Shown here one piece after another: positions 11,938 to 52,818 of a DNA stretch of 64,000 nucleotides. The notes beneath the pieces are model-generated. The model made no database searches, had not been told where the DNA came from, and saw nothing but the letters and a program-made list of their open reading frames with translations. The stretch is from contig NZ_AP018694.1 in NCBI RefSeq assembly GCF_009689585.1, positions 4,083,501-4,147,500 on the forward strand, given 5' to 3'. Source of the DNA: Aquipluma nitroreducens (GTDB lineage: Bacteria > Bacteroidota > Bacteroidia > Bacteroidales > Prolixibacteraceae). Positions within the stretch are counted from its first letter, which is position 1. Each line of letters opens with the position of its first letter. The position numbers and the translations under genes were made by a program.

Positions 11938-12020
11938 ATTAACGATTGATGAATAACGATTAACGATTTGAGATTGGGAAACTGTTCCTTCTTAAATCGT
12001 TAATCGTTGTTCGTTAATCT
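11938..12020. repeat. Heptamer-periodic inverted array, locus 1
   Basis: The left arm runs in 7-base steps from 11938 (ATTAACG, ATTGATG, then further variants ending 11979). The right arm at 11994-12020 carries the same words inverted (its complement contains ACGATTA followed by ACGATTT, which also occur side by side in the left arm). A small GGAA-ACTG-TTCC hairpin is at the centre. It lies between the convergent PQQ-like and DUF72 genes and would fold into one long hairpin. Confidence 0.75.
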
Positions 12021-12048
12021 CCTTGACAACAAAGAACAATCATGAAGT

Positions 12049-12957
12049 CTAAAATCCGAGAGTTGGCGCAGTGTCTTCCTTTGGACTGATCAGCTTTGGA
12101 ATTTGAAGATTGGTCCCAAATTGTTTGTTCAGCTTCTCGATGAAATAAGCCGACAGGAAAGGCGATTCCAGTTCGATGTTTTGGTGAACAAAGAAATAAA
12201 TGTCGCGAATGCCCTGATCGACCCAAATTTTCAGGCGGTTAGCCCAATCGTCCAAACGTTCGCGGTCGCTTTGCGGGTTGTTGGCGCCCACGTAACGCAC
12301 AAACACTTTGGGCGTGGTAAGGCGCACGTGCAGCAAATCGCGTCGTCCGGCGGTATCAACCACAATATTCGTTACCTGGTGCTTTTCGAACAACGAGTAA
12401 ACTTCTTCGGAAACGGCCTTATCATTGAACCATTCAGTATTGCGCAGTTCAACGGCCAGCGGAATGGCTCTCGGAAAATTTTCGATAAAACTCACCAGCC
12501 GGTCGTAATTTTTGTACTTGAAATTATCGTGCAACTGGAGGAACACCATTCCGAGCTTCTCCTCAAAATTGCTGATGTTGTCACAATATTCAGTCGTTAA
12601 AGCCTGCACATCGTTCAATCGCCGCATGTGGCTGATGCTTTGTGTGATCTTCGGGAAGAACCGAAAATTATCCGGAGCCTTATCTTTCCAGGTAATTACC
12701 TGATCTCTACCCGGCATACTATAAAAGGTGGCATTCAGCTCAATGGAGTTAAATTGACGGGAATAATAAGTCAACTCATCTTTGGTGCCGCGTGGATAAA
12801 AGTTCTTCAGGTCGGTTTTGTTCCATTTGGCACAACCTACATAGATCGAGAGTGGTTTCGTTGTGTCGTTTTGTTTGAGTATCTCTGTAGTTTGCTGATC
12901 GTCGGCTGGCAGCCGGAAATCAATAAATTCTGGGTTTTCACTTTGTCCGAATTTCAT
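12049..12957 (-). CDS. DUF72 (YecE-like) TIM-barrel protein
   Basis: A 302-residue cytoplasmic protein of the DUF72/YecE family. The family signature is clear: YVGCAKWNKTDLKNFYP near the start, FNSIELNATFYSMP, FRFFPKITQSISHMRR, LGMVFLQLHDNF, LAVELRNTEWF, FVRYVGANN and the terminal YFFVHQNIELESPFLSAYFIEKLN. The fold is a TIM barrel related to endonuclease IV and xylose isomerases, but the biochemical function is not established. Divergent from the KAP NTPase gene. Confidence 0.9.
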   Translation of the reverse strand: MKFGQSENPEFIDFRLPADDQQTTEILKQNDTTKPLSIYVGCAKWNKTDLKNFYPRGTKDELTYYSRQFNSIELNATFYSMPGRDQVITWKDKAPDNFRFFPKITQSISHMRRLNDVQALTTEYCDNISNFEEKLGMVFLQLHDNFKYKNYDRLVSFIENFPRAIPLAVELRNTEWFNDKAVSEEVYSLFEKHQVTNIVVDTAGRRDLLHVRLTTPKVFVRYVGANNPQSDRERLDDWANRLKIWVDQGIRDIYFFVHQNIELESPFLSAYFIEKLNKQFGTNLQIPKLISPKEDTAPTLGF

Positions 12958-13115
12958 TGTAGATTGTTTAAAGTTGGAAGAATGAAGGTATAATCTTTTT
13001 CGGTTATAGAATATGAAATAGATGTCTAGAATTTATTGAATGATTTGAGTGCTTTTGAGAAGAAGTATTGTTAAATTAGCAAAAATCTCTTTACAAAAAC
13101 AAACCTTTGGCTTTA

Positions 13116-15476
13116 ATGAATCAAGATCTAAAACCATTTTATGAAACAGCTCACAAAATTTATCAAGAGCTTTTGTCTGGTGATAACATTCAATTTCAGA
13201 GTGTATTTAATCCAAGTTTACTTCACGAGAACCAATTTCAATCTTTGATAGATATTTTGGTAAAATTAGGATTTATCATTAATAGATTGGATATTGAGTC
13301 AATGACAGTTTCTGGCTTTGACAGAGGAAATGGTTTTACGGAATATCAAAAATGGCTTCCAGAAGACACCTCAACTTTATATCCTAGTAGAAATGAATAT
13401 TATTTGTTGTATTTAGAGTATTATAAGAGAAGTGTAGGATCACTTACTTTTCCACACAAAACTAAATCTAATTCGGATAAAATTTATTTATTGTCACAAG
13501 TGATATCTAATAAAGAGATTTTTAGTATCTCTTTGGGTATTAATAAAGGTGGGAAAGGATTTATTAATATAAGGAATCAAAGTTTTCCCCTCATTGCCCC
13601 AAATCAACTATTAATCTATGATCTCACCAAACTTAATGGCTATTCCACAAAATATACCAGAGAAGGTTTTCAGGATTTATTTAATCAAGCAACTGCAAAG
13701 TATAGCGAAATTGACGTAAATATTTTAGAGAGAACAGGTGAAAATGTCACATCTAAATTAGGTTATAATCTTGAGGATATAAAACTTCCATATTTTGAAA
13801 CTTATTTTAGATTAACTCATTTCTTCCCAAAGTTTGAAGAACTGTTATTACATGAACTTTCTTTTCCACAAACGAGAGAAAGTCAGCCGCAGAGTGAGAT
13901 GTCTATTAATAAAAATTTTAAAAATATAAGAGCGGGCGTAAAGTCTAAAAGTGATGTAAATGGATCATTAGCAGAGAGTGCGTCGGAGGAATTAGGCGAA
14001 CACAGAACCCTCTTTAAATATGGTTTATATTTCCCTACCATAAAGGACGATCAGATAGAACCATGTTTCAACGTAAAAAATGTTGCTTCAGTGTTTGCCG
14101 ATCACATATCCAAATTGCAGGAAGAAACGGGACAAATGGTTGGTATATTTGGCAAATGGGGGCGAGGGAAAACTTATTTTAAGAAAGAAGTAGAGGGGAT
14201 ATTTAAAAAAGAAAATTCAAAGTATGATTTTACGATAATAGATTTTCATGCATGGAAATATCAGGATACGCCTGCGATTTGGGCTTATTTGTATGAATGT
14301 CTTTCTGATGAATATTTTGGATCACAGTGGTTTATTAAAAATTGGAGAAAGTTTAAGCTTAATTTTCAAAGAGAGAAGTCAAATATTATTAAAGATATTC
14401 TGTTTTTAGGTATTGCTTTTTCTTTATTTACAAGTATTCTAAGCCTTTTCAAATCTGGAAATTTAGGTTTATTTGGTAATCTAATTGATACGATCAAGAA
14501 TAATTGGTGGCAGACAATTTCTGGTGGAACTATTATTTCTTCTTTGTTGAAATTCTGGAAAAGAGAAGGAACAAATGCACATGAGCTTTTGAAAAAATAC
14601 TCAAAAGGAATTTCATTTAATCAACACTTGGGAGTTCAGGCTGAAATAGAAAAAGAGCTTGTTATTTTATTGAAAACATGGATTGCTGACAAAAGTAAAG
14701 AACGACTTATTTTCTTTGTTGATGATATTGACCGATGCTCTGAAAAAAAGATCATTGAGATTGTTGATTCGCTTCGGGTTATGCTTGAACATCCAGCGAT
14801 TGTAAAGCGAGTAATAGTATTGGTTGCAATAGACGAAGAAAAACTTGCCATGGCAATTCGTTATAAATACCGAGAATTTTATCCTCCAACAAGTGATAAT
14901 TCAAAAATTCTCGATGATTTGACTAGAGAATATATGGACAAGTTGTTTATTTCAGGAATAAAACTTCAGGCTTTAAATAACGATAACGTCAACGAGTTTA
15001 TTTCAACACTTGTAGAGCAAGACTGGAAAGATATTACGCAAAATCGTTTATTTCCTGAAGAAGAAACACCAAAGGAACAAGTGCATTTAGGTAGAACCGA
15101 ATTGACAATAGCTAATGAGAAAAAAGAAGAGGCATTGAGCGAAAGTGAGGAATCATCACTTACCATGAATGAAAATGCAATGAATGAAACTTATTTGGAA
15201 GAGCTTGAGGCTAGTGATGTAAAAGATATGTTTAGAGAAGAATTTATGGAATTGAAAGAGGAATTAACTCCTCGGCAGATTCGTATTTTATATTATCGTT
15301 TTCAATTAGCAAAAAACCTATACATAAAACTTTTAGATGCAGAGAACGACCAATTAATAACTGATGGATTAAAAGGTTTGTTAAAAGCCATTCATATAAA
15401 AACCGTTTCTAAAAAAGATCATTTTGTAGAAGATCCTATCATTGATCAAATTGCAGAAATGGTTGTAGGGTATTAG
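13116..15476 (+). CDS. KAP-family P-loop NTPase with inserted membrane helices
   Basis: A 786-residue protein starting at ATG 13116 (a TTG nine bases earlier is unlikely). Residues 1-300 match no domain I recognise. The KAP core follows: Walker A GKWGRGKT (Lys352/Thr353), two hydrophobic helices inserted at about 427-447 and 469-485, and Walker B FFVDDIDRC at about 534-541, followed by the IVVL-type strand with VAIDEEKLAMAI. An acidic linker at about 650-700 precedes a C-terminal helical part. The gene is clearly more AT-rich than its neighbours: I count 15 G+C in 13381-13440 against 26 in 12121-12180. KAP NTPases include phage-exclusion proteins such as plasmid F PifA, so defence is possible. 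That is inference. It stands alone as a one-gene unit. Confidence 0.85.
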   Translation: MNQDLKPFYETAHKIYQELLSGDNIQFQSVFNPSLLHENQFQSLIDILVKLGFIINRLDIESMTVSGFDRGNGFTEYQKWLPEDTSTLYPSRNEYYLLYLEYYKRSVGSLTFPHKTKSNSDKIYLLSQVISNKEIFSISLGINKGGKGFINIRNQSFPLIAPNQLLIYDLTKLNGYSTKYTREGFQDLFNQATAKYSEIDVNILERTGENVTSKLGYNLEDIKLPYFETYFRLTHFFPKFEELLLHELSFPQTRESQPQSEMSINKNFKNIRAGVKSKSDVNGSLAESASEELGEHRTLFKYGLYFPTIKDDQIEPCFNVKNVASVFADHISKLQEETGQMVGIFGKWGRGKTYFKKEVEGIFKKENSKYDFTIIDFHAWKYQDTPAIWAYLYECLSDEYFGSQWFIKNWRKFKLNFQREKSNIIKDILFLGIAFSLFTSILSLFKSGNLGLFGNLIDTIKNNWWQTISGGTIISSLLKFWKREGTNAHELLKKYSKGISFNQHLGVQAEIEKELVILLKTWIADKSKERLIFFVDDIDRCSEKKIIEIVDSLRVMLEHPAIVKRVIVLVAIDEEKLAMAIRYKYREFYPPTSDNSKILDDLTREYMDKLFISGIKLQALNNDNVNEFISTLVEQDWKDITQNRLFPEEETPKEQVHLGRTELTIANEKKEEALSESEESSLTMNENAMNETYLEELEASDVKDMFREEFMELKEELTPRQIRILYYRFQLAKNLYIKLLDAENDQLITDGLKGLLKAIHIKTVSKKDHFVEDPIIDQIAEMVVGY

Positions 15477-15511
15477 CTGTAATTAAAGAGTTTTTTATTG
15501 TAAAAATCCTT

Positions 15512-15716
15512 TTAAACTCCTCTCTTCCGATACTCTCCCGGCGACATGCCCATCACTTTTCTGAAAACTCTGGAAAAGTAAAATTGGTCGTCGAAACCCA
15601 TTTCACGGGAGACATCGGCAATCATCCATCCGGAGTTGTCGAGTAACCGGCAGGCACGTTGAATTTTCAACTGAATGAAATAATCAATGGGCGAGTGGCC
15701 GGTGCGGTTGACAAAC
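15512..15716 (-). pseudogene. AraC-family regulator, 3' fragment cut off by IS66
   Basis: This codes for the C-terminal part of an AraC/XylS DNA-binding domain, including GHSPIDYFIQLKIQRACRLLDNSGWMIADVSREMGFDDQFYFSRVFRKVMGMSP (second helix-turn-helix; quoted here only to identify the segment by its key words GHSPIDYF and FDDQFYFSRVFRK). The 5' part is at 18368-19046. Removing the IS and one copy of its target duplication rejoins the reading frame exactly as LFV-NRTGHSP, giving 291 residues. A start within this fragment would yield only 70 residues with half of the DNA-binding domain. Confidence 0.9.
15709..15716. repeat. IS66 target-site duplication, left copy
   Basis: TGACAAAC, directly repeated at 18368-18375 on the other side of the element. 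Eight bases is the duplication length expected for IS66 family insertions. Confidence 0.95.
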
Positions 15717-16160: not shown

Positions 16161-16161
16161 G

Positions 16162-19210: not shown

Positions 19211-19218
19211 TACATTTG
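19211..19218 (+). promoter_or_regulatory. Probable -7 box of the sugar transporter cluster
   Basis: TACATTTG matches the Bacteroidota -7 consensus TAnnTTTG. It lies 21 bases before the GTG at 19240. It also overlaps a TTG at 19216 that could be read as a start, which argues that the real start is GTG 19240. No clear -33 TTG is found. Confidence 0.5.
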
Positions 19219-19239
19219 GATAAACTAAATTCTAAACTT

Positions 19240-20622
19240 GTGAGCAAATCAAATTTCAACCGACAGTTTATTTTGGGCATAACGCTGGTTTCGGCCATGG
19301 GCGGGCTGCTGTTCGGCTACGATTGGGTGGTAATTGGCGGTGCCAAACCATTTTATGAACGTTTTTTCAATATTACGCAATCGCCTTACCTGCAAGGCTG
19401 GGCTATGAGCAGCGCACTGATTGGCTGTTTGGTCGGAGCCTTGGTTTCTGGCTATCTCTCCGATCGTTTTGGGAGGAAAAAACCATTGATTGCAGCCGCA
19501 GCTTTGTTTACAGTCGCTGCAATTGGGACAGGGGCTGTCAATAATTTTACTTTGTTTATTGTTTTTCGGTTGATTGGCGGTTTGGGCATTGGCCTGGCAT
19601 CGGCGATTTCGCCCATGTATATTGCAGAAATATCGCCGGCTTCCATGCGTGGGCGCTTGGTTTCAGTGAATCAGCTGACCATCGTTTTGGGAATTCTGGC
19701 CGCACAAATTACCAACTACCTGATTGCAGAAGCTGTTCCGACTGGCGCGACCGATGATTTTATCCTGAATTCATGGAACGGTCAGTCGGGTTGGCGCTGT
19801 ATGTTCTGGGCAGGAACAGTTCCGGCATTGTTGTTTTTTGTTTTGTCGTTTTTTATTCCTGAAAGTCCCCGTTTTCTGGCTAAAACCGGAAAATCAGAAG
19901 ATGCTTTTTCTATTCTGAAACGAATCGGAGGGGAAGCCTACGCTCTTCAGGAGCAGAAAGAAATTACGGAAACCTTGCATGGTACCGATTCAAAAATTGA
20001 CTGGAAAGCTTTAGGCTCCAAAAAAGTTCGCCCGGTGCTAATTTTAGGCATTGTGTTGGCTGTTTTCCAGCAATGGTGCGGCATCAACGTGATATTTAAT
20101 TATGCGGATGAGATATTTACCTCGGCAGGGTATTCGGTGGGTGATATGCTTTTCAATATTGTAATTACCGGAACCGTGAACCTTATTTTTACCGTTGCCG
20201 CAATGCGCGTGGTCGACAGTTGGGGACGTCGTAAACTGATGTTGCTTGGCTCAAGCGGACTGGCTGTCATTTACCTGGCACTTGGAGCAAGCTATTTCTT
20301 CGAACTAAAAGGCTTGGCCATTTTGGTTTTGGTAATGGTTGCCATTGCTACCTATGCTATGACTTTAGCACCGATTACCTGGGTGGTTTTATCCGAGATT
20401 TTTCCGAACAGCGTGCGCGGTGCCGCTATGGCCATTGCTACAACCGCGCTGTGGATCGCCTGTTTTGTGCTCACTTACACATTCCCGATATTAAATAAAT
20501 TGCTGAATGCCAGCGGCACATTTTGGCTGTATGCTTTTATCTGCCTGTCGGGCTTTTTATTCATTCTGAAAAAACTTCCGGAGACAAAAGGGAAAAGTCT
20601 GGAAGAAATTGAAAAGATGTAA
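19240..20622 (+). CDS. MFS sugar porter (sugar:proton symporter family)
   Basis: About 460 residues with twelve hydrophobic segments. Sugar-porter signatures are present: GYDWVVIGG in helix 1, GYLSDRFGRKKPL in loop 2-3, RLIGGLGIGLASAISPMYIAEISPASMRGRLVSVNQL, PESPRFL after helix 6, QQWCGINVIFNYADEIF in helix 7, VDSWGRRKLML in loop 8-9 and PETKGKSLEEIE at the C-terminus. It should import a monosaccharide across the inner membrane by proton symport. GTG 19240 is chosen as start because the promoter -7 box overlaps the upstream TTG. First gene of the plus-strand cluster ending with GH35. Confidence 0.95.
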   Translation: MSKSNFNRQFILGITLVSAMGGLLFGYDWVVIGGAKPFYERFFNITQSPYLQGWAMSSALIGCLVGALVSGYLSDRFGRKKPLIAAAALFTVAAIGTGAVNNFTLFIVFRLIGGLGIGLASAISPMYIAEISPASMRGRLVSVNQLTIVLGILAAQITNYLIAEAVPTGATDDFILNSWNGQSGWRCMFWAGTVPALLFFVLSFFIPESPRFLAKTGKSEDAFSILKRIGGEAYALQEQKEITETLHGTDSKIDWKALGSKKVRPVLILGIVLAVFQQWCGINVIFNYADEIFTSAGYSVGDMLFNIVITGTVNLIFTVAAMRVVDSWGRRKLMLLGSSGLAVIYLALGASYFFELKGLAILVLVMVAIATYAMTLAPITWVVLSEIFPNSVRGAAMAIATTALWIACFVLTYTFPILNKLLNASGTFWLYAFICLSGFLFILKKLPETKGKSLEEIEKM

Positions 20623-20633
20623 AATTTAAAAAT

Positions 20634-20681
20634 AACCACATAGAACACATTAGAAAAAATAACTATGTGACCTATGTGGTT
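20634..20681. repeat. Heptamer-periodic inverted array, locus 3
   Basis: The left arm is in 7-base words from AACCACA at 20634. The right arm, read as its complement, begins with the same AACCACA then TAGGTCA, matching the left TAGAACA with two changes. It would form a long imperfect hairpin in the 74-base gap between the MFS and GH2 genes. Confidence 0.75.
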
Positions 20682-23547: not shown

Positions 23548-23582
23548 TTGAAACCTGGAATTTGAAACCTGGAACTATGAAT
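23548..23582. repeat. Heptamer-periodic array overlapping a start codon, locus 2
   Basis: Five 7-base words in a row: TTGAAAC and CTGGAAT alternate twice (second as CTGGAAC), then TATGAAT, which contains the ATG start of the next gene. No inverted partner is seen here. The words match, on the opposite strand, those of the array at 52716-52818. Confidence 0.7.
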
Positions 23583-26500
23583 GTTAAAGCCTGGTACGAA
23601 AAAGTTGTGATTCCGACTTATGGAATTGGTAAACCCGAGAAGAACCCGATGTTTCTGGAAAAGAGGGTTTATCAGGGAAGCAGCGGGGTGGTTTATCCAC
23701 ATCCGGTGATTGAGAAAATTCTGGATGAAAAGGTTGATAAAGAATGGAATGCCGTTTTTCTGGAAAACCAATACCTGAAAATTATGATTTTGCCCGAGCT
23801 GGGCGGGCGGGTGCAGATGGCCTACGACAAAATCAAGGAGCGCCATTTTATCTATTACAATCAGGTGATTAAACCGGCCTTGGTTGGACTGACCGGCCCC
23901 TGGATTTCGGGTGGATTGGAGTTTAACTGGCCGCAGCATCACCGTCCATCGACTTTCGAGCCGGTTGATCACTGTATTGAGGAAAATGCCGATGGCAGCG
24001 TAACCGTATGGTGCAGCGAGGTAGAGCGCATGTTTCGTACACGCGGAATGGCTGGTTTTACATTGCATCCTGATAAAGCATACCTCGAAATAAAGGTGAA
24101 GCTGCTGAACCGCACTGATTTTCCGCAGACTTTCCTGTGGTGGGCCAATCCGGCCGTAAAAGTGAACGACCATTACCAGTCGGTTTTTCCGCCGGATGTG
24201 AACGCGGTTTTTGATCATGGCAAACGTGATGTTTCGGAATTTCCGATTGCAAAAGGAACATACTACAAAGTGGACTATTCGCCCGGAACCGACATCTCCC
24301 GTTATAAAAACATTCCGGTTCCCACCTCATACATGGCTGTGAATTCGAAATACAACTTTGTTGGTGGCTACGAAAACGACACGAAAGGCGGATTGCTGCA
24401 TGTAGCCAATCACCATGTTTCGCCCGGAAAAAAGCAGTGGACCTGGGGTCATAGCGATTTTGGTCGGGCCTGGGACCGAAACCTGACTGATGAGGACGGT
24501 CCTTACATCGAACTGATGTGCGGCGTTTATACCGACAATCAACCCGACTTTTCGTGGCTGATGCCCGGTGAGGAGAAAACATTCAGTCAGTATTTTATGC
24601 CCTACCGCGATTTGGGTGTGGTAAAAAATGCGACCAAAGAGGCCATGATTAATCTCGAATTTGAAGACGGTAAGGCCACCATAAAAGCATACACCACCGG
24701 AGTTTATCCCAATTCAAAAGTCATCCTGAAAAGTGGAAAAGAAATAATTTTGGAGGATTCATTCGATTTTTATCCGGCAACATCCTATGAGAAAGCCATT
24801 TTAAATGAGAAATTTTCGGGATACGGAGGCCAAAAGCCCCCTCTTTCGGAGGGGGTTGGGGGAGGCTTTTCTATTGCGATTGTTTCTTCTGAAGGAAAAA
24901 TTCTGGTTGACTGGACACCCGAATCTAATGAAAAAAAGCCAATTCCGGAGGCAGCGAAAGCCGCAAAACTTCCATCAGAAATTGATAGCAACGAACAGTT
25001 GTACCTCACCGGACTGCATTTGGAGCAGTACCGGCATGCCACCTACGATCCGCGCGATTATTACCTCGAAGCACTGCGCCGCGACCCGTGCGACAGTCGT
25101 TGCAACAACGCGATGGGCCTGTGGTTGTTGCGCAGGGGCAAATTTGCTGATGCTGAAAACTATTTCCGGAAAGCTGTTGAAACACTCACTCAACGCAATC
25201 CAAATCCGCTGGATGGAGAACCCTATTTCAACCTTGGGCTTTCGCTAATCTATCAAAGTCGCGATGATGAGGCTTTCGATGCCTTTTATAAATCGGTTTG
25301 GAATGCAGCCTTTATGGATTGCGGCTATTTTCAGTTGGCCCGCCTCGCAGCTAAAAAGCAAAACTGGGACGAAGCGCTTGACTTGATCGACCGCTCGCTG
25401 GTGCGAAACTGGAACAATGCAAAAAGTCGCCACCTGAAAGTCTGCGTTCTTCGGAAATTGAACCGTGTTGCAGAAGCCCAAAAGCTAATCGAAGAATCAT
25501 TTGAACTTGATCGGTTTAATTTTGGCGTTTTGTTCGAAAAATCTTTATTGACTGGCGACTCAAAGTCCCCTTTCGGGGATTTAGGGGTGTCGCAGCCCAA
25601 CATCCACACTTATATCGAATTTGCCCTTGATTACGCTTTTGCCGGATTGTATCAGGAAGCCATTGAGCTGATTTCGTTAGGGATTGAAGAGCAAATCGCT
25701 CAGCCTGTTTACCCCATGGCATGGTATTACAAAGTCTGGTTCGAAATGTTTTCGGGCAATAAATCAGCTTCTGAAAAATCGCTGACAGAAGCATCAGCCG
25801 CTTGCCCTGATTTTTGTTTTCCCAACCAAATTGAGGCTGTTATTGTTTTGGAATGGGCCAAACAACAGAATCCGGCTGATTCGAAAGCACCGTATTATCT
25901 GGGCAATTTCTGGTACAATGCCCGCCAGTACGACGATGCCGTGACCAACTGGGAATTATCGGCTAAATTAAATGATGGTTTTGCAACCGTTCACCGGAAT
26001 CTTTCACTGGCCTATTTCAACAAGCAAAACCAGTCGCAAAAAGCGTTGGCCGAGTTGGAAAAAGCATTTGGTTTGGACGAAACCGATTCGCGTATCCTGA
26101 TGGAGCTCGATCAATTGTACAAACGTCTCGGATATTCACCCGAATTCCGGTTGGAGAAGCTCGAAAAATATCCCGAACAGGTTAACTATCGCGACGATTT
26201 ATACCTTGAAAGAGCTGCATTATACAACCAGTTGGGCCAGTTTGAAAAAGCTTACGGCTTGATTATGGAGCGCAAATTCCATCCGTGGGAAGGAGGCGAA
26301 GGAAAAGTAACCGGTCAATATGTATATAGCTTAACCGAAATGGCAAAAACAGTCCTTCAGGAAAAGGATTTTTCAAAAGCTATCGAATTGCTTGAAAAGG
26401 CTCAGATTTATCCTGAAAACCTGGGAGAAGGAAAACTCTACGGCGCTCAGGAAAATGCCATCTTTTATTGGCTGGGCAATGCATATTCAGGAATGAACGA

Positions 26501-26840
26501 CCGCGAAAAAGCCCGCCAGTACTGGGAAAAAGCTTCCTCCGGAATCAGCGAGCCAGTTCCGGCAATCTTTTACAACGACCAGCAGCCCGATACTATTTTT
26601 TATCAGGGGCTGGCACTTGTTCAGCTTGAGAAAAACGACGAAGCCAAAACCCGCTTCAATAAACTGATTGATTTCGGGAAAGCGCACTTGAACGATGAAT
26701 CCAAACTAGACTATTTCGCAGTTTCGTTACCTGATTTGCAGATTTGGGACGATGATTTGACCAAGCGAAATCACCAAAATTGCCAGAATCTGATTGCATT
26801 GGGAGAGCTTGGCCTATCACAAATTCAGAATGAAAAATAA
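23577..26840 (+). CDS. DUF5107 and TPR-repeat protein
   Basis: A 1087-residue cytoplasmic-looking protein without a signal peptide. Residues 1-380 are the DUF5107 domain, a galactose-mutarotase-like beta-sandwich (LENQYLKIMILPELGGRVQMAYDK, WPQHHRPSTFEPVDH). Residues about 480 to the end form a long array of tetratricopeptide repeats (EPYFNLGLSLIYQSRDDEAF, APYYLGNFWYNARQYDDAV and others). Proteins of this type sit in Bacteroidota sugar-use clusters. The enzymatic role is unknown. Two 39-bp palindromic repeat elements are inserted in frame (24832-24870 and 25555-25593). ATG 23577 is the start; 15 bases upstream a TTG remains possible. Spaced 48 bases after GH2 and 22 before GH35. Confidence 0.9.
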   Translation: MNVKAWYEKVVIPTYGIGKPEKNPMFLEKRVYQGSSGVVYPHPVIEKILDEKVDKEWNAVFLENQYLKIMILPELGGRVQMAYDKIKERHFIYYNQVIKPALVGLTGPWISGGLEFNWPQHHRPSTFEPVDHCIEENADGSVTVWCSEVERMFRTRGMAGFTLHPDKAYLEIKVKLLNRTDFPQTFLWWANPAVKVNDHYQSVFPPDVNAVFDHGKRDVSEFPIAKGTYYKVDYSPGTDISRYKNIPVPTSYMAVNSKYNFVGGYENDTKGGLLHVANHHVSPGKKQWTWGHSDFGRAWDRNLTDEDGPYIELMCGVYTDNQPDFSWLMPGEEKTFSQYFMPYRDLGVVKNATKEAMINLEFEDGKATIKAYTTGVYPNSKVILKSGKEIILEDSFDFYPATSYEKAILNEKFSGYGGQKPPLSEGVGGGFSIAIVSSEGKILVDWTPESNEKKPIPEAAKAAKLPSEIDSNEQLYLTGLHLEQYRHATYDPRDYYLEALRRDPCDSRCNNAMGLWLLRRGKFADAENYFRKAVETLTQRNPNPLDGEPYFNLGLSLIYQSRDDEAFDAFYKSVWNAAFMDCGYFQLARLAAKKQNWDEALDLIDRSLVRNWNNAKSRHLKVCVLRKLNRVAEAQKLIEESFELDRFNFGVLFEKSLLTGDSKSPFGDLGVSQPNIHTYIEFALDYAFAGLYQEAIELISLGIEEQIAQPVYPMAWYYKVWFEMFSGNKSASEKSLTEASAACPDFCFPNQIEAVIVLEWAKQQNPADSKAPYYLGNFWYNARQYDDAVTNWELSAKLNDGFATVHRNLSLAYFNKQNQSQKALAELEKAFGLDETDSRILMELDQLYKRLGYSPEFRLEKLEKYPEQVNYRDDLYLERAALYNQLGQFEKAYGLIMERKFHPWEGGEGKVTGQYVYSLTEMAKTVLQEKDFSKAIELLEKAQIYPENLGEGKLYGAQENAIFYWLGNAYSGMNDREKARQYWEKASSGISEPVPAIFYNDQQPDTIFYQGLALVQLEKNDEAKTRFNKLIDFGKAHLNDESKLDYFAVSLPDLQIWDDDLTKRNHQNCQNLIALGELGLSQIQNEK
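24832..24870. repeat. In-frame 39-bp CCCC/GGGG palindromic element, copy B
   Basis: Bounded by inverted arms AAAAGCC and GGCTTTT. The core is CCCCCTC-TTTC-GGAGGGGG followed by TTGGGGGAGG. It is 13 codons long, starts at codon position 2 and codes for a Gly/Pro-rich patch (KPPLSEGVGGG) without breaking the frame. It resembles the intergenic copy at 73-112. Confidence 0.8.
25555..25593. repeat. In-frame 39-bp CCCC/GGGG palindromic element, copy C
   Basis: Bounded by inverted arms GCGAC and GTCGC. The core is GTCCCC-TTTC-GGGGATTTAGGGG. Also 13 codons long and also starting at codon position 2. It codes for SKSPFGDLGVS between TPR helices. Same family as copies at 73-112 and 24832-24870. Confidence 0.75.
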
Positions 26841-31611: not shown

Positions 31612-31615
31612 CAAC

Positions 31616-32005
31616 GCAGACCGCTCTATCGCTGTTCCGTTTATTCGGGAGAGAGGAAAGTCCGGGCAACGCAGGGCACCATGCTTCTTAACAGGAAGGC
31701 GGGCGAAAGCTTGCAGTAAGGTAACAGAAAACGACCACCCCCGAGTTCTCGGGGGAACGGGTGAAAAGGCGGGGTAAAAGCCCACCGGTGGTTGTGGCAA
31801 CACAATCAGCCGTACTTCTGATGGGTTGCAAAGCCAAATATATCACGATTTTCCCCCGAGTCCTCGGGGGGATACAGAACGGCCCGTTTTGGTTCTTCGG
31901 AAGTCGTGAGGGGTAGGCTGCTCGATCGGGTTAGTGATAACCCGGGTAGATAAATGATAGAGACTCGTCGCAAGACGATTACAGAACCCGGCTTACAGGT
32001 CTGCG
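31616..32005 (+). ncRNA. rnpB: RNase P RNA, bacterial class A
   Basis: A 390-base RNA closed by helix P1 (CGCAGACC at the start, GGTCTGCG at the end). Conserved core words are present: GAGAGGAAAGTCCGGGC, the CAGTAAGG..AACAGAAA region, GGTGAAAAGGCGGGGTAAAAGCCCACC, GCCAAATA, GGGTAGGCTGCT, GATAGAGACTCG and TACAGAACCCGGCTTA. It is the catalytic subunit that trims tRNA 5' ends. Two near-identical hairpins, CCCCCGAGTTCTCGGGGG at 31738-31755 and the same with one base changed at 31853-31870, form the tips of P12 and of a helix in the P15-P17 area. Confidence 0.97.
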
Positions 32006-32014
32006 TATTTTAAA

Positions 32015-35408: not shown

Positions 35409-35457
35409 TTGCGGGTTACGAGTTTTCCCGCAACTTGTATCTCGCAACCCGAAACGA
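35409..35457. repeat. Heptamer-periodic inverted array, locus 4
   Basis: Seven consecutive 7-base words exactly in register. The left ones start GTTGCGG then GTTACGA. The right ones include CGCAACT and CGCAACC, the reverse complements of GTTGCG-type words. The same word set appears at 51157-51218. It lies in the 129-base gap above the histidine kinase gene. Confidence 0.8.
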
Positions 35458-35459: not shown

Positions 35460-36110
35460 CTATTTCGCGATCGATTCCATAATTTTCCCCAGCTCAGCAT
35501 CATTCATTTCTTTCCCCCAATTGGGTGAGAGTTCTGTTTTTGGTTTGAAAGACTGAAATTTTTCGGCAGCCTTTTGATACAATGGCAATGCCTTTGCTGC
35601 ACCTCCGCCAAAAGCTTCGGGCATATTGGCAGTCATGGTGGCACGCAGGTAATAAACCCGCGGATTATCAGGGTTTAGCTCCAGCGATTTATCGAGTGCC
35701 GCATTCATTTTGCCCACCAATGCCATTCCCCGGTTTATTGGGTCGATGTTGATGCGCGACGGGTACAAAAAGCCTTGTAGCATAAATAATTCAGATTCGT
35801 TGGCTTCAATCGCCATAGCCTGATCGAGGTATTTTTGAGCCAGATCGAGATACAGGTCTTTTTTTGTGTTTTCTGCTTCCTGAAAGCTGATCATGATATA
35901 CGCAAATGAAGCGTAATAGAGTGGTAACCATTCTGCTTTCTCAATTTGCGAAATACGTTCAAACTGATTGGCAACTTCAACATATTCAGGAATGGTTTTA
36001 GCCTGAAACAGCTTTTCGATTGACTGGCTCATCGCTTTTTGATAGGCTTCGTTGGCAAAACCAGCACTGGATAATAAAAGTAAGGCAAGGATAAAAATTG
36101 ATTTTTTCAT
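35460..36110 (-). CDS. Secreted TPR-like protein
   Basis: A 216-residue protein from ATG 36110, which gives a proper signal peptide (KKSIFILALLLLSSAGFA). A start 48 bases upstream would add a non-signal leader and overlap a repeat, so it is rejected. The body has helical pairs with TPR-like words (DLAQKYLDQAMAIEANES, AALDKSLELNPDNPRVYYLRATM). No enzyme motif is seen. It follows the TonB-dependent receptor and is probably a periplasmic partner. Confidence 0.8.
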   Translation of the reverse strand: MKKSIFILALLLLSSAGFANEAYQKAMSQSIEKLFQAKTIPEYVEVANQFERISQIEKAEWLPLYYASFAYIMISFQEAENTKKDLYLDLAQKYLDQAMAIEANESELFMLQGFLYPSRINIDPINRGMALVGKMNAALDKSLELNPDNPRVYYLRATMTANMPEAFGGGAAKALPLYQKAAEKFQSFKPKTELSPNWGKEMNDAELGKIMESIAK

Positions 36111-36147
36111 GAGTGTTGATTGTTTGTTGTATTTGTTTGACTTTAGA

Positions 36148-36174
36148 GAGGGTTTCACCCAAAGTGAAGCCCTC
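36148..36174. repeat. 27-bp CTTCACTTTG palindromic repeat, copy 2
   Basis: Read on the minus strand: GAGGGCTTCACTTTGGGTG then AAACCCTC. It differs from copy 1 (33482-33508) at three positions, of which the two end changes are compensatory. It lies between the TonB receptor stop (36185) and the TPR gene start (36110). Confidence 0.8.
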
Positions 36175-44792: not shown

Positions 44793-46406
44793 ATGAGTAG
44801 AAGAATTACACCGTCTCATTTGCTGCGAAAAAAGCTGCGTAACCGAAGTTCGGGGTATCATCCCCAGAACGACCGGTACCGGTGGTTTGTGCTGGCCAAT
44901 ATCATGTTGGGAACTTTCATGGCGGTTCTCGACAGTACCATTGTAAACGTGGGGCTGCCAAAGATTATGGCTTCGTTCGGAGTTGGTATCGATAAAATTG
45001 AATGGGTTATAACTGCATATATGCTTTCGATGGCGGTAATGCTGCCAACTTCGGGGTGGATGGCTGATAAGTTTGGTTATAAGCGAATGTATTTCATGGG
45101 CTTGCTGATGTTTACGCTTGGGTCTATGCTTTGCGGAATGTCAAATGACGAAAATTCACTGATTCTTTCGCGTATTGTTCAAGGACTTGGTGCAGGAACC
45201 ATTCAGCCATTAGGTATGGCAATCATTACCCGCGAATTTCCGCCACAGCAGCGCGGTATGGCATTGGGTTTTTGGGCTATTGCCGCTGCAGCTTCCGTGT
45301 CGTTTGGCCCGTTGATTGGTGGTTATCTGGTCGATAACTTTAGCTGGCAACTTATTTTCGATGTAAATATTCCGTTCGGAATTGCAGCGATGGTTTTCAC
45401 CATTGTTATCCAGAAAGAATATATAAACAAGCTAGTTGGTAAATTCGATCTCATAGGGTTTGTTTCGGTTGTCATATTTCTGCCGGTGCTGCTTTATGCT
45501 TTATCCGAAGGAAGTGCGTCAACCAATACCGAAGGATGGAGCGCTCCTTATATTTTGGTTTGCTTTGCCATTTCAGCGATTGCTTTTGCGGTATTCATCA
45601 CCCGGGAGCTGACAACGGATCATCCGTTGATCAATTTGCGACTTCTTGGTGATTACAACTTCGGAATGGGGAATCTGGTCATGATGATTTTTGTGATCGG
45701 AATGTTTGGCAGTACTTTTTTGTTGCCACTTTACCTTCAGAACACGATGGGTTATACAGCAGTTCAGGCTGGTGCCGTTTTCCTTCCTGTTGGATTTATC
45801 CAAGGAATGATGTCGCCAATTGCAGGAAAGGTTTCTGATAAAATTAATCCGAAAGTGCCTATAATTATTGGCGTAATTACTTTGGGGATTAGTTTTCTTC
45901 TGAATTCGCAACTCACCTACCTTTCGGAACATAGCTTTGTAATGTCCTCGTTGTATTTACGCGGGTTTGCCATGGGCATTATTTTTACACCACTCAGCAA
46001 TTTAATGTTGCTAACCATTTCACGCGACAACATGGCGCAGGCTTCGGGTATTACCAATACGATTCGTCAGTTAGGTGGAAGTTTGGGAGTGGCCATGTTC
46101 ACTACATTGCTGACTACCCGAATTAACTATCATATGCAAACCTTTGGTGAGGCTATTCAGTCCGGATCCCAGGAGTTTAAGAATGTGGCAACCAATTTAA
46201 CTCATTTTGCTCAGCAAAGTGTAGGCAGTAATATGGCAACCGCAGCCCAGCAAGGTAAATACATGATTATACAGCACGTTTCGAAACAAGCCTATATTGC
46301 CGGTATTGACGACGATTTTTGGATTGCCGCCATTATCACTTTTATGAGCCTGATTCCCGTAATTATCATGAAAACAAAAAATAGAAAATCAATTGCAAAA
46401 TCTTAA
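44793..46406 (+). CDS. EmrB/QacA-type MFS drug efflux pump (DHA2, 14 helices)
   Basis: A 537-residue transporter with fourteen hydrophobic helices. DHA2 marks: NIMLGTFMAVLDSTIVNVGLPKIMASFGVGIDKIEWVITAYMLSMAVMLPTSGWMADKFGYKRMY (motifs D1 and A) and LSRIVQGLGAGTIQPLGMAII (motif B). It exports drugs or other amphiphiles by proton antiport with the EmrA-like adaptor and TolC-like channel. Overlap and spacing show a tight operon. Confidence 0.95.
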   Translation: MSRRITPSHLLRKKLRNRSSGYHPQNDRYRWFVLANIMLGTFMAVLDSTIVNVGLPKIMASFGVGIDKIEWVITAYMLSMAVMLPTSGWMADKFGYKRMYFMGLLMFTLGSMLCGMSNDENSLILSRIVQGLGAGTIQPLGMAIITREFPPQQRGMALGFWAIAAAASVSFGPLIGGYLVDNFSWQLIFDVNIPFGIAAMVFTIVIQKEYINKLVGKFDLIGFVSVVIFLPVLLYALSEGSASTNTEGWSAPYILVCFAISAIAFAVFITRELTTDHPLINLRLLGDYNFGMGNLVMMIFVIGMFGSTFLLPLYLQNTMGYTAVQAGAVFLPVGFIQGMMSPIAGKVSDKINPKVPIIIGVITLGISFLLNSQLTYLSEHSFVMSSLYLRGFAMGIIFTPLSNLMLLTISRDNMAQASGITNTIRQLGGSLGVAMFTTLLTTRINYHMQTFGEAIQSGSQEFKNVATNLTHFAQQSVGSNMATAAQQGKYMIIQHVSKQAYIAGIDDDFWIAAIITFMSLIPVIIMKTKNRKSIAKS

Positions 46407-46410
46407 TTCT

Positions 46411-47733
46411 ATGATTCTAAAAATAAACAAATACGTCAGGTTCTTTCTTCCGGTAATTGGAATATTGATCCTTGGATCAGCAAAAGGTCAGTCTTCTCCC
46501 GGTGATTCACTTTCACTAAATACAATAATTCAGGAGGTTACTGTAAATCATCCGGCGGTTAAAAAGGCTATGGAAGACCTCCATGTTTCGGATGCAAAAA
46601 TAGGTTTGGCTGAATCGAATTACCTGCCTAATGTTGATTTTGCTTCTTCCTATTCACGGATTGGGCCAATATCAACCATCACTATTCCTGATATGGGAAG
46701 CTTCAGTTTTGTGCCTCACGATAATTATTCGGCTACGGTCAATGTAAATCAAACGATTTATGACTTTGGAAAAACAGAGAAAAGCGTTTTGTTTGAAAAA
46801 CAAGGCAAGGAATTGACGCTTCAGTCGATAGAACAAGTAAAACAGAAACTTTCGCAAGCTGTAATTGCCAACTTCTATACACTTGTTTACCTTCAGGAGG
46901 CTTTGAAAATTAAGGATGAGCAGCTTAAAACCTTAAATGAACACCTGAATTACATCAAAAAGAAACAGGAAACAGGATCGGCTACGCAATATGAAATTTT
47001 GACCACCGAGGTGCGGATTTCAACCATCGAGAATCAGAAAACCGATTTGGAAACCGCCCGTCAGGTGCAGGTTTGCCAGCTTAATTCGTTACTTGGAAAG
47101 CCTGAATCTACTAAGGAGGTAGTGAAAATAGAAATGAGCGTTTCGCTTCCCGGTATGCAGAATGATGCATTGATTGCTTCCGCTATGGAAAATCGCGACG
47201 AAATGAAGCTGGCTTCTGAAAAAGCTAAACTGGCTCAATTGCGCTACAACCTTACCAGTTATCAGAACAAACCTATTGTAAGCGCTTTTCTTTCAGGCGG
47301 AATAAAAAATGGATATACGCCTTATTTGTATGATCCGAAAGCCAATTTTGTTGCTGGGTTTGGTGTGAAAGTTCCTATTTTTGATGGCAAACGCAAGATG
47401 TACAATCAGGTGCAGGCTCAATCTGCCATTCAGACCAATGACCAGGAAACGGAAATCGCCCGCAGGGGAATTGTGAATGAAGTCGTGGAGGGTGAAGCCA
47501 ACGTGAATGCGTCGAAGAAAAAGGTGGAACAAGGCGAACTGCAACTGAGGCAGGCAAATCAAGCTTATTCGCTGGCCAAAGTTCGTTTCGATTCGGGCGT
47601 GATTACCAATCTTGAATTGCTTGAAGGCTCAACCGCTGTTTCGGAAAGCCAACTTCAACTTTTAAAAGCGAAAATCGATTATACCGTTAGTCTTTATAAA
47701 CTGAAATCGGCAACTGGAGAAAGGTTATACTAA
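46411..47733 (+). CDS. TolC-family outer-membrane efflux channel
   Basis: A 440-residue protein starting at ATG 46411, four bases after the pump stop. An earlier TTG at 46393 would overlap the pump and is rejected. Signal peptide to about residue 28 (AKGQ). Two outer-membrane efflux repeats follow, with the helical words NHPAVKKAMEDLHVSDAKIGLAESNYLPNVDF and, in the second half, ANQAYSLAKVRFDSGVITNLELLEGSTAVSESQLQLLKAKIDY. It completes the MarR-EmrA-EmrB-TolC tripartite pump. Confidence 0.94.
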   Translation: MILKINKYVRFFLPVIGILILGSAKGQSSPGDSLSLNTIIQEVTVNHPAVKKAMEDLHVSDAKIGLAESNYLPNVDFASSYSRIGPISTITIPDMGSFSFVPHDNYSATVNVNQTIYDFGKTEKSVLFEKQGKELTLQSIEQVKQKLSQAVIANFYTLVYLQEALKIKDEQLKTLNEHLNYIKKKQETGSATQYEILTTEVRISTIENQKTDLETARQVQVCQLNSLLGKPESTKEVVKIEMSVSLPGMQNDALIASAMENRDEMKLASEKAKLAQLRYNLTSYQNKPIVSAFLSGGIKNGYTPYLYDPKANFVAGFGVKVPIFDGKRKMYNQVQAQSAIQTNDQETEIARRGIVNEVVEGEANVNASKKKVEQGELQLRQANQAYSLAKVRFDSGVITNLELLEGSTAVSESQLQLLKAKIDYTVSLYKLKSATGERLY

Positions 47734-47970: not shown

Positions 47971-48050
47971 GTCATTAGAAAAAAGGGAAAAATGCTCTTT
48001 GTTGTTTCTTTCCTCTTTTCTAATGACCAATGACACTTTCCTCATTCCTT
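47971..48050. repeat. Heptamer-periodic inverted array, locus 5
   Basis: The left arm begins GGTCATTAGAAAAAAGGG at 47971. The right arm, read as its complement, has GTCATTG then GTCATTA, continuing with GAAAAGA-type words. Both arms step in sevens. Located just beyond the terminator of the efflux operon and beside the stop of the SGNH gene. Confidence 0.65.
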
Positions 48051-48051: not shown

Positions 48052-48825
48052 TTACTTTACCGCATTCAGCCAGGCTTCAGCCATTAACGAACACCCGGCC
48101 ATAGTTGGATGAACTCCATCGGCAGTCCAGTATTTGGCTGGAGCACGAAGAATCGCTTCGTTAAAAATCGCTTGATAAGGAATGAAAACAGCGTTAAATT
48201 CTTCGGCAAGTTTCTTCGCAGCTTCCCGATAGCCATCAAAAGCCGGGAACCATTTTTCTGTTACAGCAGTTGAACCTAAGATTGCAAATGGCTCACCAAT
48301 AACCAGTTTTACTTCAGGAAGCATTTTGCGTGTCAATACCAAAAGTTGTTTGTAGTCTTGTGCGTATTTTTCTACGGTTCCGTCGTATTTTCCGTCCAGG
48401 GTGTGCCAATAGTCGTTAACTCCGACCAGAATACTAATCAATGCCGGATTCAGATCAAAACAGTCTCTCTGCCAGCGTTCTGACAATTGATAAACTTTAT
48501 TTCCACTAATTCCCCGATTGAAAATTGAAAAATCTTTCAAAGGATTCTCATTCAGAATGCGGGAGGCTGCCAAAAAAGAATATCCGGTTCCAAATGATGA
48601 GGATAAGTTTGATTGTTGTTTCATTCGTTCGCGACCGGCATCGGTGATTGAATCACCCTGAAACAGTATCACGTCTCCAGTTTTGAGTGATGGAAGGATT
48701 CCTTTTTGTCGCTTTTTGCCCAATTGCATTGAAGCTGAAAGAATTTCGGGGATTGCAGTCAGCGCAACAGCGCCAATGGTGGCATTTCTTAGAAAATTAC
48801 GTCTGTTAATTTGCATCATTTTCAA
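48052..48825 (-). CDS. Exported SGNH/GDSL hydrolase with Tat-like signal
   Basis: A 257-residue enzyme. The N-terminus has NRRNFLRNATIGAVALTAI, a twin-arginine style signal. SGNH blocks are clear: ILFQGDSITDAG (nucleophile Ser), the Gly block FNRGISGNKV, the Asn block LVGVNDYWH and WTADGVHPT with the Asp-x-x-His pair. It is likely a periplasmic esterase acting on an acylated sugar. Its start overlaps the upstream ATPase gene by 20 bases, with ATGs at 48819 and 48816 as alternatives. Confidence 0.92.
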   Translation of the reverse strand: MKMMQINRRNFLRNATIGAVALTAIPEILSASMQLGKKRQKGILPSLKTGDVILFQGDSITDAGRERMKQQSNLSSSFGTGYSFLAASRILNENPLKDFSIFNRGISGNKVYQLSERWQRDCFDLNPALISILVGVNDYWHTLDGKYDGTVEKYAQDYKQLLVLTRKMLPEVKLVIGEPFAILGSTAVTEKWFPAFDGYREAAKKLAEEFNAVFIPYQAIFNEAILRAPAKYWTADGVHPTMAGCSLMAEAWLNAVK

Positions 48826-49363: not shown

Positions 49364-49582
49364 GTTTTGTAACGTAAATATTGAACTGATAATTTTTCAG
49401 GTTAACATTTATTTTAATCAACAGTTGGGATTGCAGCTTAAAAATAGAAATTATTACCGCTCAAATTAATGATCTGGATTATATTTATTAAATAATCATT
49501 AATAATAAAACTGCATATTCTGTAAATCAATTAATTAGGTTGTTTTTTAAATCAGTTTATTTTCACGAATAGAATAAAAATA

Positions 49583-49590
49583 TACATTTG
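49583..49590 (+). promoter_or_regulatory. uxaB promoter -7 box
   Basis: TACATTTG fully matches TAnnTTTG. Transcription would start near 49597, at the edge of the first operator. The -33 region is weak, which suits a regulated promoter. Confidence 0.65.
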
Positions 49591-49599
49591 CGGCATAAT

Positions 49600-49615
49600 C
49601 CGTGTTCGTACACGG
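49600..49615. promoter_or_regulatory. Paired dyad operator, site 1 (LacI-like)
   Basis: CCGTGTTCGTACACGG, arms CCGTGT and ACACGG around a TCGT centre. The central CG and GTG/CAC arms fit LacI-family operators. It sits at the probable transcription start of uxaB, a position that should repress. The partner site is 33 bases downstream. Confidence 0.75.
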
Positions 49616-49632
49616 AATTCGGTTATGGCAAT

Positions 49633-49648
49633 TCGTGTTCGCACACGG
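49633..49648. promoter_or_regulatory. Paired dyad operator, site 2 (LacI-like)
   Basis: TCGTGTTCGCACACGG, identical to site 1 at 14 of 16 positions. The 33-base centre-to-centre spacing is about three helical turns, so two dimers would bind the same DNA face. It lies in the leader, 23 bases before ATG 49672. Confidence 0.75.
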
Positions 49649-49671
49649 TGAATTTTAAAATAGATGACAAA

Positions 49672-51150: not shown

Positions 51151-51156
51151 ATAATT

Positions 51157-51218
51157 GTTTCGGGTTACGAGTTTCGGGTTACAGGTGTACCCGCAACACG
51201 AATCCCGCAACTCGCAAC
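51157..51218. repeat. Heptamer-periodic inverted array, locus 6
   Basis: Nine 7-base words between uxaB and uxaA. The left arm uses GTTTCGG and GTTACGA. The right arm uses CGCAACA, CGCAACT and CGAATCC, the inverted forms. The 17-base left stretch starting GTTACGAG pairs with the far right. Shares its words with the array at 35409-35457, 16 kb away. It may modulate uxaB-uxaA readthrough or mRNA stability. Confidence 0.8.
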
Positions 51219-51225
51219 AAAAAAA

Positions 51226-52713
51226 ATGGCAAAATTTATAAAACTTAATCCGAACGATAATGTGGCGGTTTGTCTTGAAATTGGACAAGCTGGTGACACA
51301 GTGGTTGTTAATGATCAGCAGTTCGTTCTTTCAAACGATATTCCGGTTGGTCATAAAGTGGCCTTGCAAGCAATTGCAGTCAATGCCGATGTGATCAAAT
51401 ATGGTGCGCCAATTGGTCATGCTATTGCTGAAATTCTGATCGGAAATCATGTTCACACGCACAACCTGAAAACCAATCTTTCCGGAACAATTACCTATTC
51501 ATTCAACCAGAGGCTGAATGAAATCCGCTATGCAAAACGCGATCTGACGTTTAACGGATATCGCCGTAGCAATGGAAATACCGGAATCCGCAATGAAATT
51601 TGGATTGTGCCAACCGTTGGCTGCGTAAACGGTCAGGCGCAACAAATTATCAACCGGTTTCAGAAGGAAGTTAATCCTGAAAACGTGGATGCCATTGAGG
51701 TTTTCAAACACAATTACGGCTGTTCGCAGTTGGGCGACGACCATGTGAATACCCAGAAAGCGTTGGCACAGCTGATCAATCATCCGAATGCTGGTGGTGT
51801 TCTGGTTCTTGGGTTGGGTTGCGAAAATAACCAAATCGCTCACCTGAAAAAGTTTATTGGTGAATATGATGCTAACCGAATCAAATTTCTGGTTTCGCAG
51901 GAAGTGGAAGACGAAGTTGAAGCCGGCGTTGAAATCCTAAAGGAAATTTACGAACACATGAAAAACGATCGCCGCGAAGCAATTCCGCTTTCAGAATTGA
52001 AAGTTGGTTTGAAATGTGGTGGCTCCGACGGTTTCTCTGGAATTACTGCCAATCCATTGGTCGGTGTCTTTTCTGATTTTTTGATTGCACAAGGCGGAAC
52101 AACTGTTTTAACCGAGGTTCCTGAAATGTTTGGGGCAGAAACAATTCTGATGGCGCGGGCAAAAGATCAATTAACTTTTGAGAAAACGGTGAGCCTGATC
52201 AACGATTTCAAGGATTATTACACACAGCATAATTTGCCGGTTTACGAAAATCCATCGCCGGGCAACAAAGACGGAGGTATTTCAACACTTGAAGATAAAT
52301 CGCTGGGTTGCACTCAAAAGGGTGGAACAGCAACGGTTGTCGATGTTTTGAAATATGCAGAGCCAATTTGCGAGAAAGGACTGAATTTATTATCAGCCCC
52401 GGGGAACGATTTGGTTGCCGCATCAGCACTGGGATTCAGCGGTTGTCAGCTGGTGCTTTTCACTACCGGAAGGGGAACTCCGTTTGGAAGTTTTGTGCCA
52501 ACCATGAAAATTTCGACCAACTCAGCATTGTTTACTAAAAAGAAAAACTGGATCGATTTTAACGCCGGACAATTGCTCGAAGGCAAAACAATGGATCAGT
52601 TGCTCGAAGAATTTATTCAGTATATTATTGAAGTTTCAAGCGGCAAGAAGTTAAGGCACGAAGAAAGTGGTTTTAAGGAAATTTCGATTTTTAAAACCGG
52701 AGTGACACTTTAA
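51226..52713 (+). CDS. uxaA: Altronate dehydratase
   Basis: A 495-residue UxaA-family dehydratase that converts D-altronate to 2-keto-3-deoxygluconate. The N-terminal SAF domain (about 1-95) has VPVGHKVALQAI and HAIAEILIGNHVHTHNLKTNL. The catalytic part has GNTGIRNEIWIVPTVGCVN, FKHNYGCSQLGDDH, LVLGLGCENNQ, LKCGGSDGFSGITANPLVG and the late CTTGRGTPFGSFVPT-like block (FTTGRGTPFG). It works right after UxaB. KDG kinase and aldolase are not in this window. Confidence 0.96.
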   Translation: MAKFIKLNPNDNVAVCLEIGQAGDTVVVNDQQFVLSNDIPVGHKVALQAIAVNADVIKYGAPIGHAIAEILIGNHVHTHNLKTNLSGTITYSFNQRLNEIRYAKRDLTFNGYRRSNGNTGIRNEIWIVPTVGCVNGQAQQIINRFQKEVNPENVDAIEVFKHNYGCSQLGDDHVNTQKALAQLINHPNAGGVLVLGLGCENNQIAHLKKFIGEYDANRIKFLVSQEVEDEVEAGVEILKEIYEHMKNDRREAIPLSELKVGLKCGGSDGFSGITANPLVGVFSDFLIAQGGTTVLTEVPEMFGAETILMARAKDQLTFEKTVSLINDFKDYYTQHNLPVYENPSPGNKDGGISTLEDKSLGCTQKGGTATVVDVLKYAEPICEKGLNLLSAPGNDLVAASALGFSGCQLVLFTTGRGTPFGSFVPTMKISTNSALFTKKKNWIDFNAGQLLEGKTMDQLLEEFIQYIIEVSSGKKLRHEESGFKEISIFKTGVTL

Positions 52714-52715
52714 AG

Positions 52716-52818
52716 AGTTTCAAGTTTCAGGTTCCAAGTTTCAAGTTCGCAATTGGTACGGTATCCTTTGCCGTCAGGCTTTAGCCGACGGACATGTGAA
52801 AATTTGGAACCTGAAATT
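52716..52818. repeat. Heptamer-periodic inverted array with nested palindrome, locus 7
   Basis: The left arm has AGTTTCA twice, then GGTTCCA and another AGTTTCA, exactly in 7-base steps from 52716. The right arm at about 52803-52817 is the inverse (TTGGAACCTGAAA). Between them a separate hairpin, CCGTC-A-GGCT-TT-AGCC-GACGG, lies at 52771-52791. It fills the convergent gap between uxaA and the HAD gene. Confidence 0.8.

Follow-up and report, generated by a model that had tools for sequence, protein, structure and literature searches.

The window analysed here comprises 64,000 nucleotides of the Aquipluma nitroreducens genome (G000:C1:4083501-4147500; G000 denotes the window's own genome and other G-numbers the genomes compared with it). 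It is part of a single contig of 5,712,279 bases (41.7% GC) and contains seven intergenic loci that a first-pass annotation had described as arrays of 7-base words, all but one with an inverted right arm. Each gap was compared with 300 dinucleotide shuffles for three measures (lag 7, lag 14 and inverted repeat, the order in which p values are given below). Both the 7-base period and the inverted arm are clear at four of the loci. The first is a GATTAACG-type heptamer array with an inverted right arm (11937-12020), located in the convergent gap between genes 10601-11932 (+) and 12049-12957 (–), with p values of 0/0/0 and an RNA folding z of –7.9 against shuffles; the same gap has no hairpin in G017 and a hairpin of another kind in G003. 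The second, a GTCATTAG hairpin of the AGTCATT family (47971-48050), also lies in a convergent gap, between genes 46393-47733 (+) and 48052-48825 (–), and yields 0/.097/0 and a folding z of –4.8, its lag-7 stretch falling mostly within a T/C-rich part; in G017 this gap carries a AAAAAAGTCATCGGTCATTAG hairpin. The third is a GTTTCGG/GTTACGA array with an inverted arm (51157-51218; 0/0/0) that fills the gap between two tandem genes, one of the mannitol dehydrogenase family and one of the altronate/galactarate dehydratase family. The fourth, an AGTTTCA/GGTTCCA array with an inverted arm (52716-52818; 0/0/0, folding z –5.8), occupies a convergent gap, and its loop holds another repeat (∼52757-52797) that is missing from the otherwise retained hairpin of G003.

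The remaining three loci fit the original description less well. The ACATAG-word hairpin at 20634-20681, 12 nt past the stop codon of gene 19216-20622, is a genuine hairpin (folding z –5.7) that is not 7-periodic (.89/.85/0); ACATAG-related words (≤2 mismatches) occur in 17 of 23 genus genomes, none of those being in the window's own genome. The GTTNCGN-type hairpin at 35409-35457, 3 nt past the stop codon of the minus-strand gene 35460-36158, is borderline when taken alone (.08/.017/.033), yet it does contain GTTNCGN words, which are present in the same gap of G017 and G003 as well. Finally, the locus at 23548-23575 is a 2 × 14-base direct repeat of TTGAAACCTGGAAT without an inverted arm, which abuts or overlaps the beginning of the following gene (ORF 23562-26840 with a TTG start, and a further ATG at 23577); with the tested gap reaching to 23595 it gives.027/0/.61 and folds no better than its shuffles (z +0.6). 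The count of six inverted arms in seven loci was thus correct, and folding of the single-stranded RNA agrees with it, as these same six beat their shuffles (z –2.4 to –7.9). None of the seven loci matches an Rfam 15 family above the gathering score, and no more than four of the window's arrays score 40 or higher as tandem repeats.

The annotation had suggested that a shared process would leave a lag-7 excess in gaps only. We scored arrays in 1.264 Mb of G000 (positions 1-400000 and 3683501-4547500, ∼22% of 5.71 Mb), made up of 223.6 kb of gaps and 1.039 Mb of coding sequence. Arrays were scored as segments, and exact-run lag counts were discarded because they are too strict for degenerate words; since genes were predicted with a simple purpose-made caller, the gaps may conceal small genes or RNAs. 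The excess holds in this sample: the gaps contain 58 arrays at lag 7, 38 at lag 14 and 26 at lag 21, compared with 1–15 at each of the remaining lags between 4 and 20, while ten dinucleotide shuffles of the gaps gave a mean of 3.0 lag-7 arrays (maximum 6) and the coding sequence contains 6. The next commonest gap spacing is lag 8, with 15 arrays. The period is also recovered when hairpins are picked by pairing alone, as the arms of 182 such gap hairpins match themselves with a z of +6.8 at lag 7 and +4.3 at lag 14, and with z between –3.6 and 0 at lags 4–6 and 8–13. Scaling from 58 arrays in 22% of one genome, we estimate a few hundred arrays per genome. Related genomes behave as had been anticipated, with lag 7 leading in all eight pieces examined from six congeners (lag 14 ties in two). 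Outside the genus we examined stretches of four genomes, on contigs chosen for holding a word match; G106 and G093 are rich in arrays, and G176 and G180 have none. In the G106 stretches (another family of the order; L269-L270), 6.9 kb of gaps out of 40 kb contain 11 lag-7 arrays, in which AGTC and AGTTGCA words as well as inverted arms are seen.

Pairing of the arms is likewise a general property of the arrays. An inverted partner lies within 90 nt of 37 of the 74 arrays, compared with 10 of 74 shuffled arrays. Neither a lack of lag-7 excess nor an absence of inverted arms in the other copies was found. The inverted partners bear on an alternative in which the loci are nothing but neutral heptamer simple-sequence repeats, slippage debris tolerated where promoters are absent and forming hairpins by chance. 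An excess of heptameric repeats in bacteria has been published together with the idea of slippage over a polymerase footprint (PMC4692102), and arrays without a partner are common (44/74). However, partners in half of the arrays, together with the stop-codon bias and the polarity of the hairpin-forming arrays described below, weaken this explanation, and we consider it very improbable.

The hairpins built of 7-base words (heptad hairpins, n = 24 in the G000 sample) sit past stop codons and avoid divergent gaps: 13 are in tandem gaps, 11 in convergent gaps and none in a divergent gap, and 21/24 lie ≤40 nt from a stop codon, compared with 80/158 other hairpins and 9.5% for random placement. The heptad hairpins of the congeners are distributed in the same way (15/16 ≤40 nt from a stop, 0/16 divergent). 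For all arrays taken together, 7/74 are in divergent gaps, which account for 50 of the 223 kb. Stop proximity is stronger for arrays that can form a hairpin, with 21/30 arrays that have an inverted partner lying ≤40 nt from a stop compared with 17/44 that do not (Fisher p =.0099), a difference that is not significant within tandem gaps alone (p =.14).

The arms also have a polarity. In most families the GT or AGT words are in the left arm and the AC or ACT words in the right arm, and counted by loci rather than by independent families GT exceeds AC in the left arm of 22/24 heptad hairpins, with one tie and one reverse. AGT occurs 30 times and ACT once in these left arms, while in the other hairpins GT and AC are balanced (.049 and.046); in the congeners the corresponding counts are 13 versus 3 for heptad hairpins and 57 versus 55 for others. 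Neighbouring pairs of AGTCATT-family sites (≤130 nt) are + then – in 25/28 cases and – then + in none, among 100 of the 123 sites listed. The GATTAAC and ATTTAC types have the opposite polarity to the majority. As AGT is not generally enriched in the arrays (26 observed, 23.6 expected), we limit the claim to polarity.

A position next to stop codons, the enrichment in convergent gaps and the lack of divergent cases would all be expected if these were functional hairpins at RNA 3′ ends, acting as bidirectional terminators or exonuclease barriers, with form selected rather than sequence and a period of 7 arising because long stems are most easily built by slippage. Hairpin terminators ≤80 bases from stop codons have been described across phyla, in a report with a heading stating that poly A/U trails are unnecessary (PMC8355165), and some AGTCATT members have flanking A and T tracts. 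However, TTTT is present at the right end of just 7/24 heptad hairpins (AAAA at the left end of 5/24; TTTT in 44/158 other hairpins), so most of them do not look like canonical terminators, and G-U pairs in the sense strand are not favoured among arm mismatches (++ genes, GT 4 and AC 10; –– genes, GT 5 and AC 2); both results speak against a sense-strand RNA stem being under selection. A process at the level of RNA selection, which the annotation had listed among its candidates, is therefore unsupported by the wobble test. The history of the 51157 gap, discussed next, does not favour this explanation either, and we think it unlikely.

The annotation had also expected gain and loss of arrays between strains. 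Our comparison is between species, covering orthologous gaps in G017 (190 of 501 gaps) and in G003 (61), and within that scope the arrays do turn over faster than random pieces of gap. In the G017 comparison there are 47 lag-7 arrays, compared with 4–7 at each of lags 5, 6, 8, 9 and 10; 16/47 are conserved and 21/47 lost or replaced, while for random gap 30-mers, which were not length-matched to the arrays, the corresponding fractions are.74 and.15. In the G003 comparison, 3/16 arrays are conserved and 11/16 lost (random 30-mers,.53 and.32). The figure for array loss is conservative because conserved arrays may be counted from both sides. Replacement can involve the whole array. The convergent gap 4079184-4079255 (71–72 nt) has GTTNCGN words in G000, CAGTGTT-type words in G017 and AGTTTCA-type words in G003, and forms a hairpin in each of the three species (p = 0 of 200 shuffles). 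This persistence of the hairpin despite different words counts in favour of the 3′-end explanation above, and together with the closer association of hairpin-forming arrays with stop codons it suggests selection for form. The gap at 51157 gives a more varied picture: GTTNCGN hairpins are kept in G017 and G018, the words of G008 are related but form no significant hairpin (p =.40), other words are found in G032, G011 and G003, the arrays of G003 form no hairpin (inverted repeat 4, p = 1.0), and in G005 the gap is 23 nt long without an array. In G011 the words at this gap (L193) are GTGAAGGG-type octamers. Elsewhere, the hairpin TGTAGAGACGCGATGCATCGCGTCTCTACA at G000:4080349-4080378 (L183) has a GTTNCGN hairpin in the same gap of G017 and G003.

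Single families have been amplified in particular lineages. Sequences within 2 mismatches of AAAAAGTCATTAGTCATT, representing the AGTCATT family, number 123 in G000 (reversed control 2), 77 in G017 and 75 in G003, with 44, 32, 28 and 20 in four others and 0–6 in the other 16 of the 23 genomes (16 of the 22 congeners). Among the 100 of 123 sites listed, 20 of the 24 in the sample are no more than 60 nt from a stop, and the left and right halves are 31–48 nt apart in 21/25 +– pairs. For GTTTCGGGTTACGAGTTTCGGG (≤3 mismatches) there are 33 sites in G000 and none for the reversed control, and it is found in 13/19 genus genomes and 0/12 genomes of other families. AGTTTCAAGTTTCAGGTTTCA occurs in 42/247 genomes of the order, and its reversed word is the common one in other genomes (61 in G065), which shows that different lineages use different words. 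At the level of the phylum, GAAGACCGAAGTCNGAAGNC is found in 54/296 genomes; sharing of the word is clear in G541 (73 versus 2 for the reversed control) and G482 (26 versus 0), the reversed control is equally high in G276 and G366, and G000 itself has 39 versus 9. Of nine GAAGACCGAAGTCNGAAGNC loci outside the window's genome inspected by eye, L278, L279 and L281 share this inverted layout.

Amplification of the AGTCATT family in part of the genus, with a regular spacing between its halves, is what would be expected of mobile palindromes resembling repetitive extragenic palindromic (REP) elements or miniature inverted-repeat transposable elements, mobilised by a Y1 (RAYT) or other transposase and 7-periodic only incidentally. 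Y1_Tnp matches, read by eye, are present in 38/42 AGTTTCA-positive genomes of the order compared with 135/205 negative ones, an association that is uncorrected for genome size and may reflect it. However, a GTAG or CGTC tag is near the end of 0/24 heptad hairpins (10/158 other hairpins), no Y1_Tnp match was obtained in four array-positive genomes, G256 (with 21 array matches), G079, G081 and G162, and transposition does not explain why several unrelated word families share a period of 7. We regard this explanation as rather unlikely. With 4/42 array-positive genomes lacking a match, a Y1 transposase does not appear to be a required partner; G000 has six Y1_Tnp matches, at least two with internal stops. 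No dedicated enzyme of the sort envisaged by the annotation was found, and Y1_Tnp, the one candidate examined, seems not to be required. Integron attC sites (GTTRRRY/RYYYAAC) were rejected on inspection, since GTTACGA-like words depart from this consensus and the arms come in the opposite order.

The annotation knew of no named family for these loci, yet heptameric intergenic repeats are already in print. The GGGAATC repeats of Xanthomonas and the GGGGA(C/T)T repeats of Nostoc are described as scarce between divergent genes and as lying ≤50 bp from a stop codon (sense) or ≤50 bp upstream of a gene (antisense), with 70–75 inverted pairs per Xanthomonas genome and length and sequence varying between related species (Rehm et al. 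2015, PMC4692102, which cites Mrazek 2007 for the heptamer excess). The arrays described here are similar in having a unit of 7 in gaps and not in genes (58 versus 6 arrays), few or no divergent-gap cases, stop-codon proximity, inverted pairs and variation between species. A strand rule like that of the GGGAATC repeats is followed near starts (20 versus 6) and weakly near stops (23 versus 18). In contrast to the single G-rich, quadruplex-capable word in near-perfect tandem copies reported for each of those genomes (PMC4692102), one genome here has many degenerate word families, and a G-quadruplex motif is found in 1/74 arrays and 0/24 heptad hairpins; genomic stability near the Xanthomonas and Nostoc repeats is reported to be higher (PMC4692102), whereas turnover of our arrays exceeds that of random gap pieces. 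The TAACTGA direct repeats of Beggiatoaceae, Cyanobacteria and five Bacteroidetes are said to occur alongside other heptamer repeats and to have 7-nt indels between two Cyanothece strains; in BOGUAY they are mostly right before start codons, with one indirect repeat in 169 sets (MacGregor 2015, PMC4679880). They are likewise gap heptamers, partly in Bacteroidetes, but consist of one direct word before starts, unlike the inverted, many-word arrays past stop codons seen here. REP elements, short palindromes tagged with GTAG/CGTC, resemble the arrays as multicopy intergenic palindromes with species-specific families (PMC3733652), and differ in the end tags (0/24 here) and in the arms, which here are built of heptamers. 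By description alone, the STRR heptamers of Calothrix and Anabaena are a further likeness, being tandem heptamers in gaps. In the open-access literature we found no publication describing inverted heptamer arrays of many words from Bacteroidota. The class is real, widespread and fast-changing; heptameric intergenic repeats are its closest known kind, and it is best filed as their palindromic, many-word variant. We claim no narrower membership because the quadruplex, the near-perfect repeat of Xanthomonas and Nostoc and the REP tags all failed as shared features.

Taken together, a shared process is supported by the gap-confined period, the hairpin form, the gene-end position and the fast turnover. 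We propose that the loci represent short palindromic intergenic repeats of several families, with arms of degenerate 7-base-word arrays, and that the arms are made and lengthened by tandem duplication in units of 7 or 14 nt, probably through replication slippage; such duplication is the simplest way to account for the period. The second arm would come from fold-back copying or inverted duplication, and some families would then spread to further gene ends, the spread of a family being evident from its amplification in part of the genus. Past a stop codon the hairpin may persist because it is harmless or because it is useful as a terminator-like or 3′-end-protecting structure; retention at gene ends could thus be neutral, there being no promoter to disturb, or selected. 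For this account of duplication, spread and retention as a whole we see an even chance. Several observations weigh against it, besides the scarcity of TTTT and the wobble result given above. The lag-7 value of hairpins within genes is fairly high too (.323; 480 positions, 23 hairpins), and arrays without a partner have little stop bias (in tandem gaps 15/33 are closer to the stop). Indels in multiples of 7 between species are not enriched in arrays (8/72 compared with 78/623 elsewhere), so slippage in steps of 7, another of the annotation's candidates, was not seen directly, although wholesale replacement of many arrays makes these alignments poor. No empty site with a target duplication was found. 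A test of mirrored word order in the two arms was not used, as it is biased by the selection of the hairpins for pairing. We also considered that new 7-base words might be actively written at gene-end hairpins, for instance by a dedicated polymerase or nuclease, and whole hairpins rewritten in place across Bacteroidota, so that the words of a genome record this activity; we hold this to be a long shot.

The cause of heptamer over-representation in bacterial gaps is a question that is years old. This genus has, by our estimate, a few hundred arrays per genome, several word families together in one genome, complete swaps between close relatives within the same gap and one family amplified in part of its members; strain sequencing and RNA end mapping should therefore be able to tell slippage, spread and selection for hairpin form apart. 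The turnover also advises caution, as such gaps should not be taken as conserved regulatory sites.

The repeat in the loop of the 52716 hairpin (window 52757-52797) is a further dispersed repeat, ATCCTTTGCCGTCNGGCTTTAGCCNACGG; its core, ATCCTTTGCCGT, occurs 13 times, both strands counted, in the 864-kb part of the sample and not at all in the 400-kb part, and pieces of it match in many congeners. A 14-base repeat of TTTGAATTGATTAG (2.4 copies) at window 62472-62504 was absent from the initial list of loci. The window's altronate dehydratase-like protein has its closest named records in Bacteroidales (79% identity to Alkalitalea and 76% to Draconibacterium, near records excluded). The sole Rfam match in the window is the class A RNase P RNA at 31613-32011.

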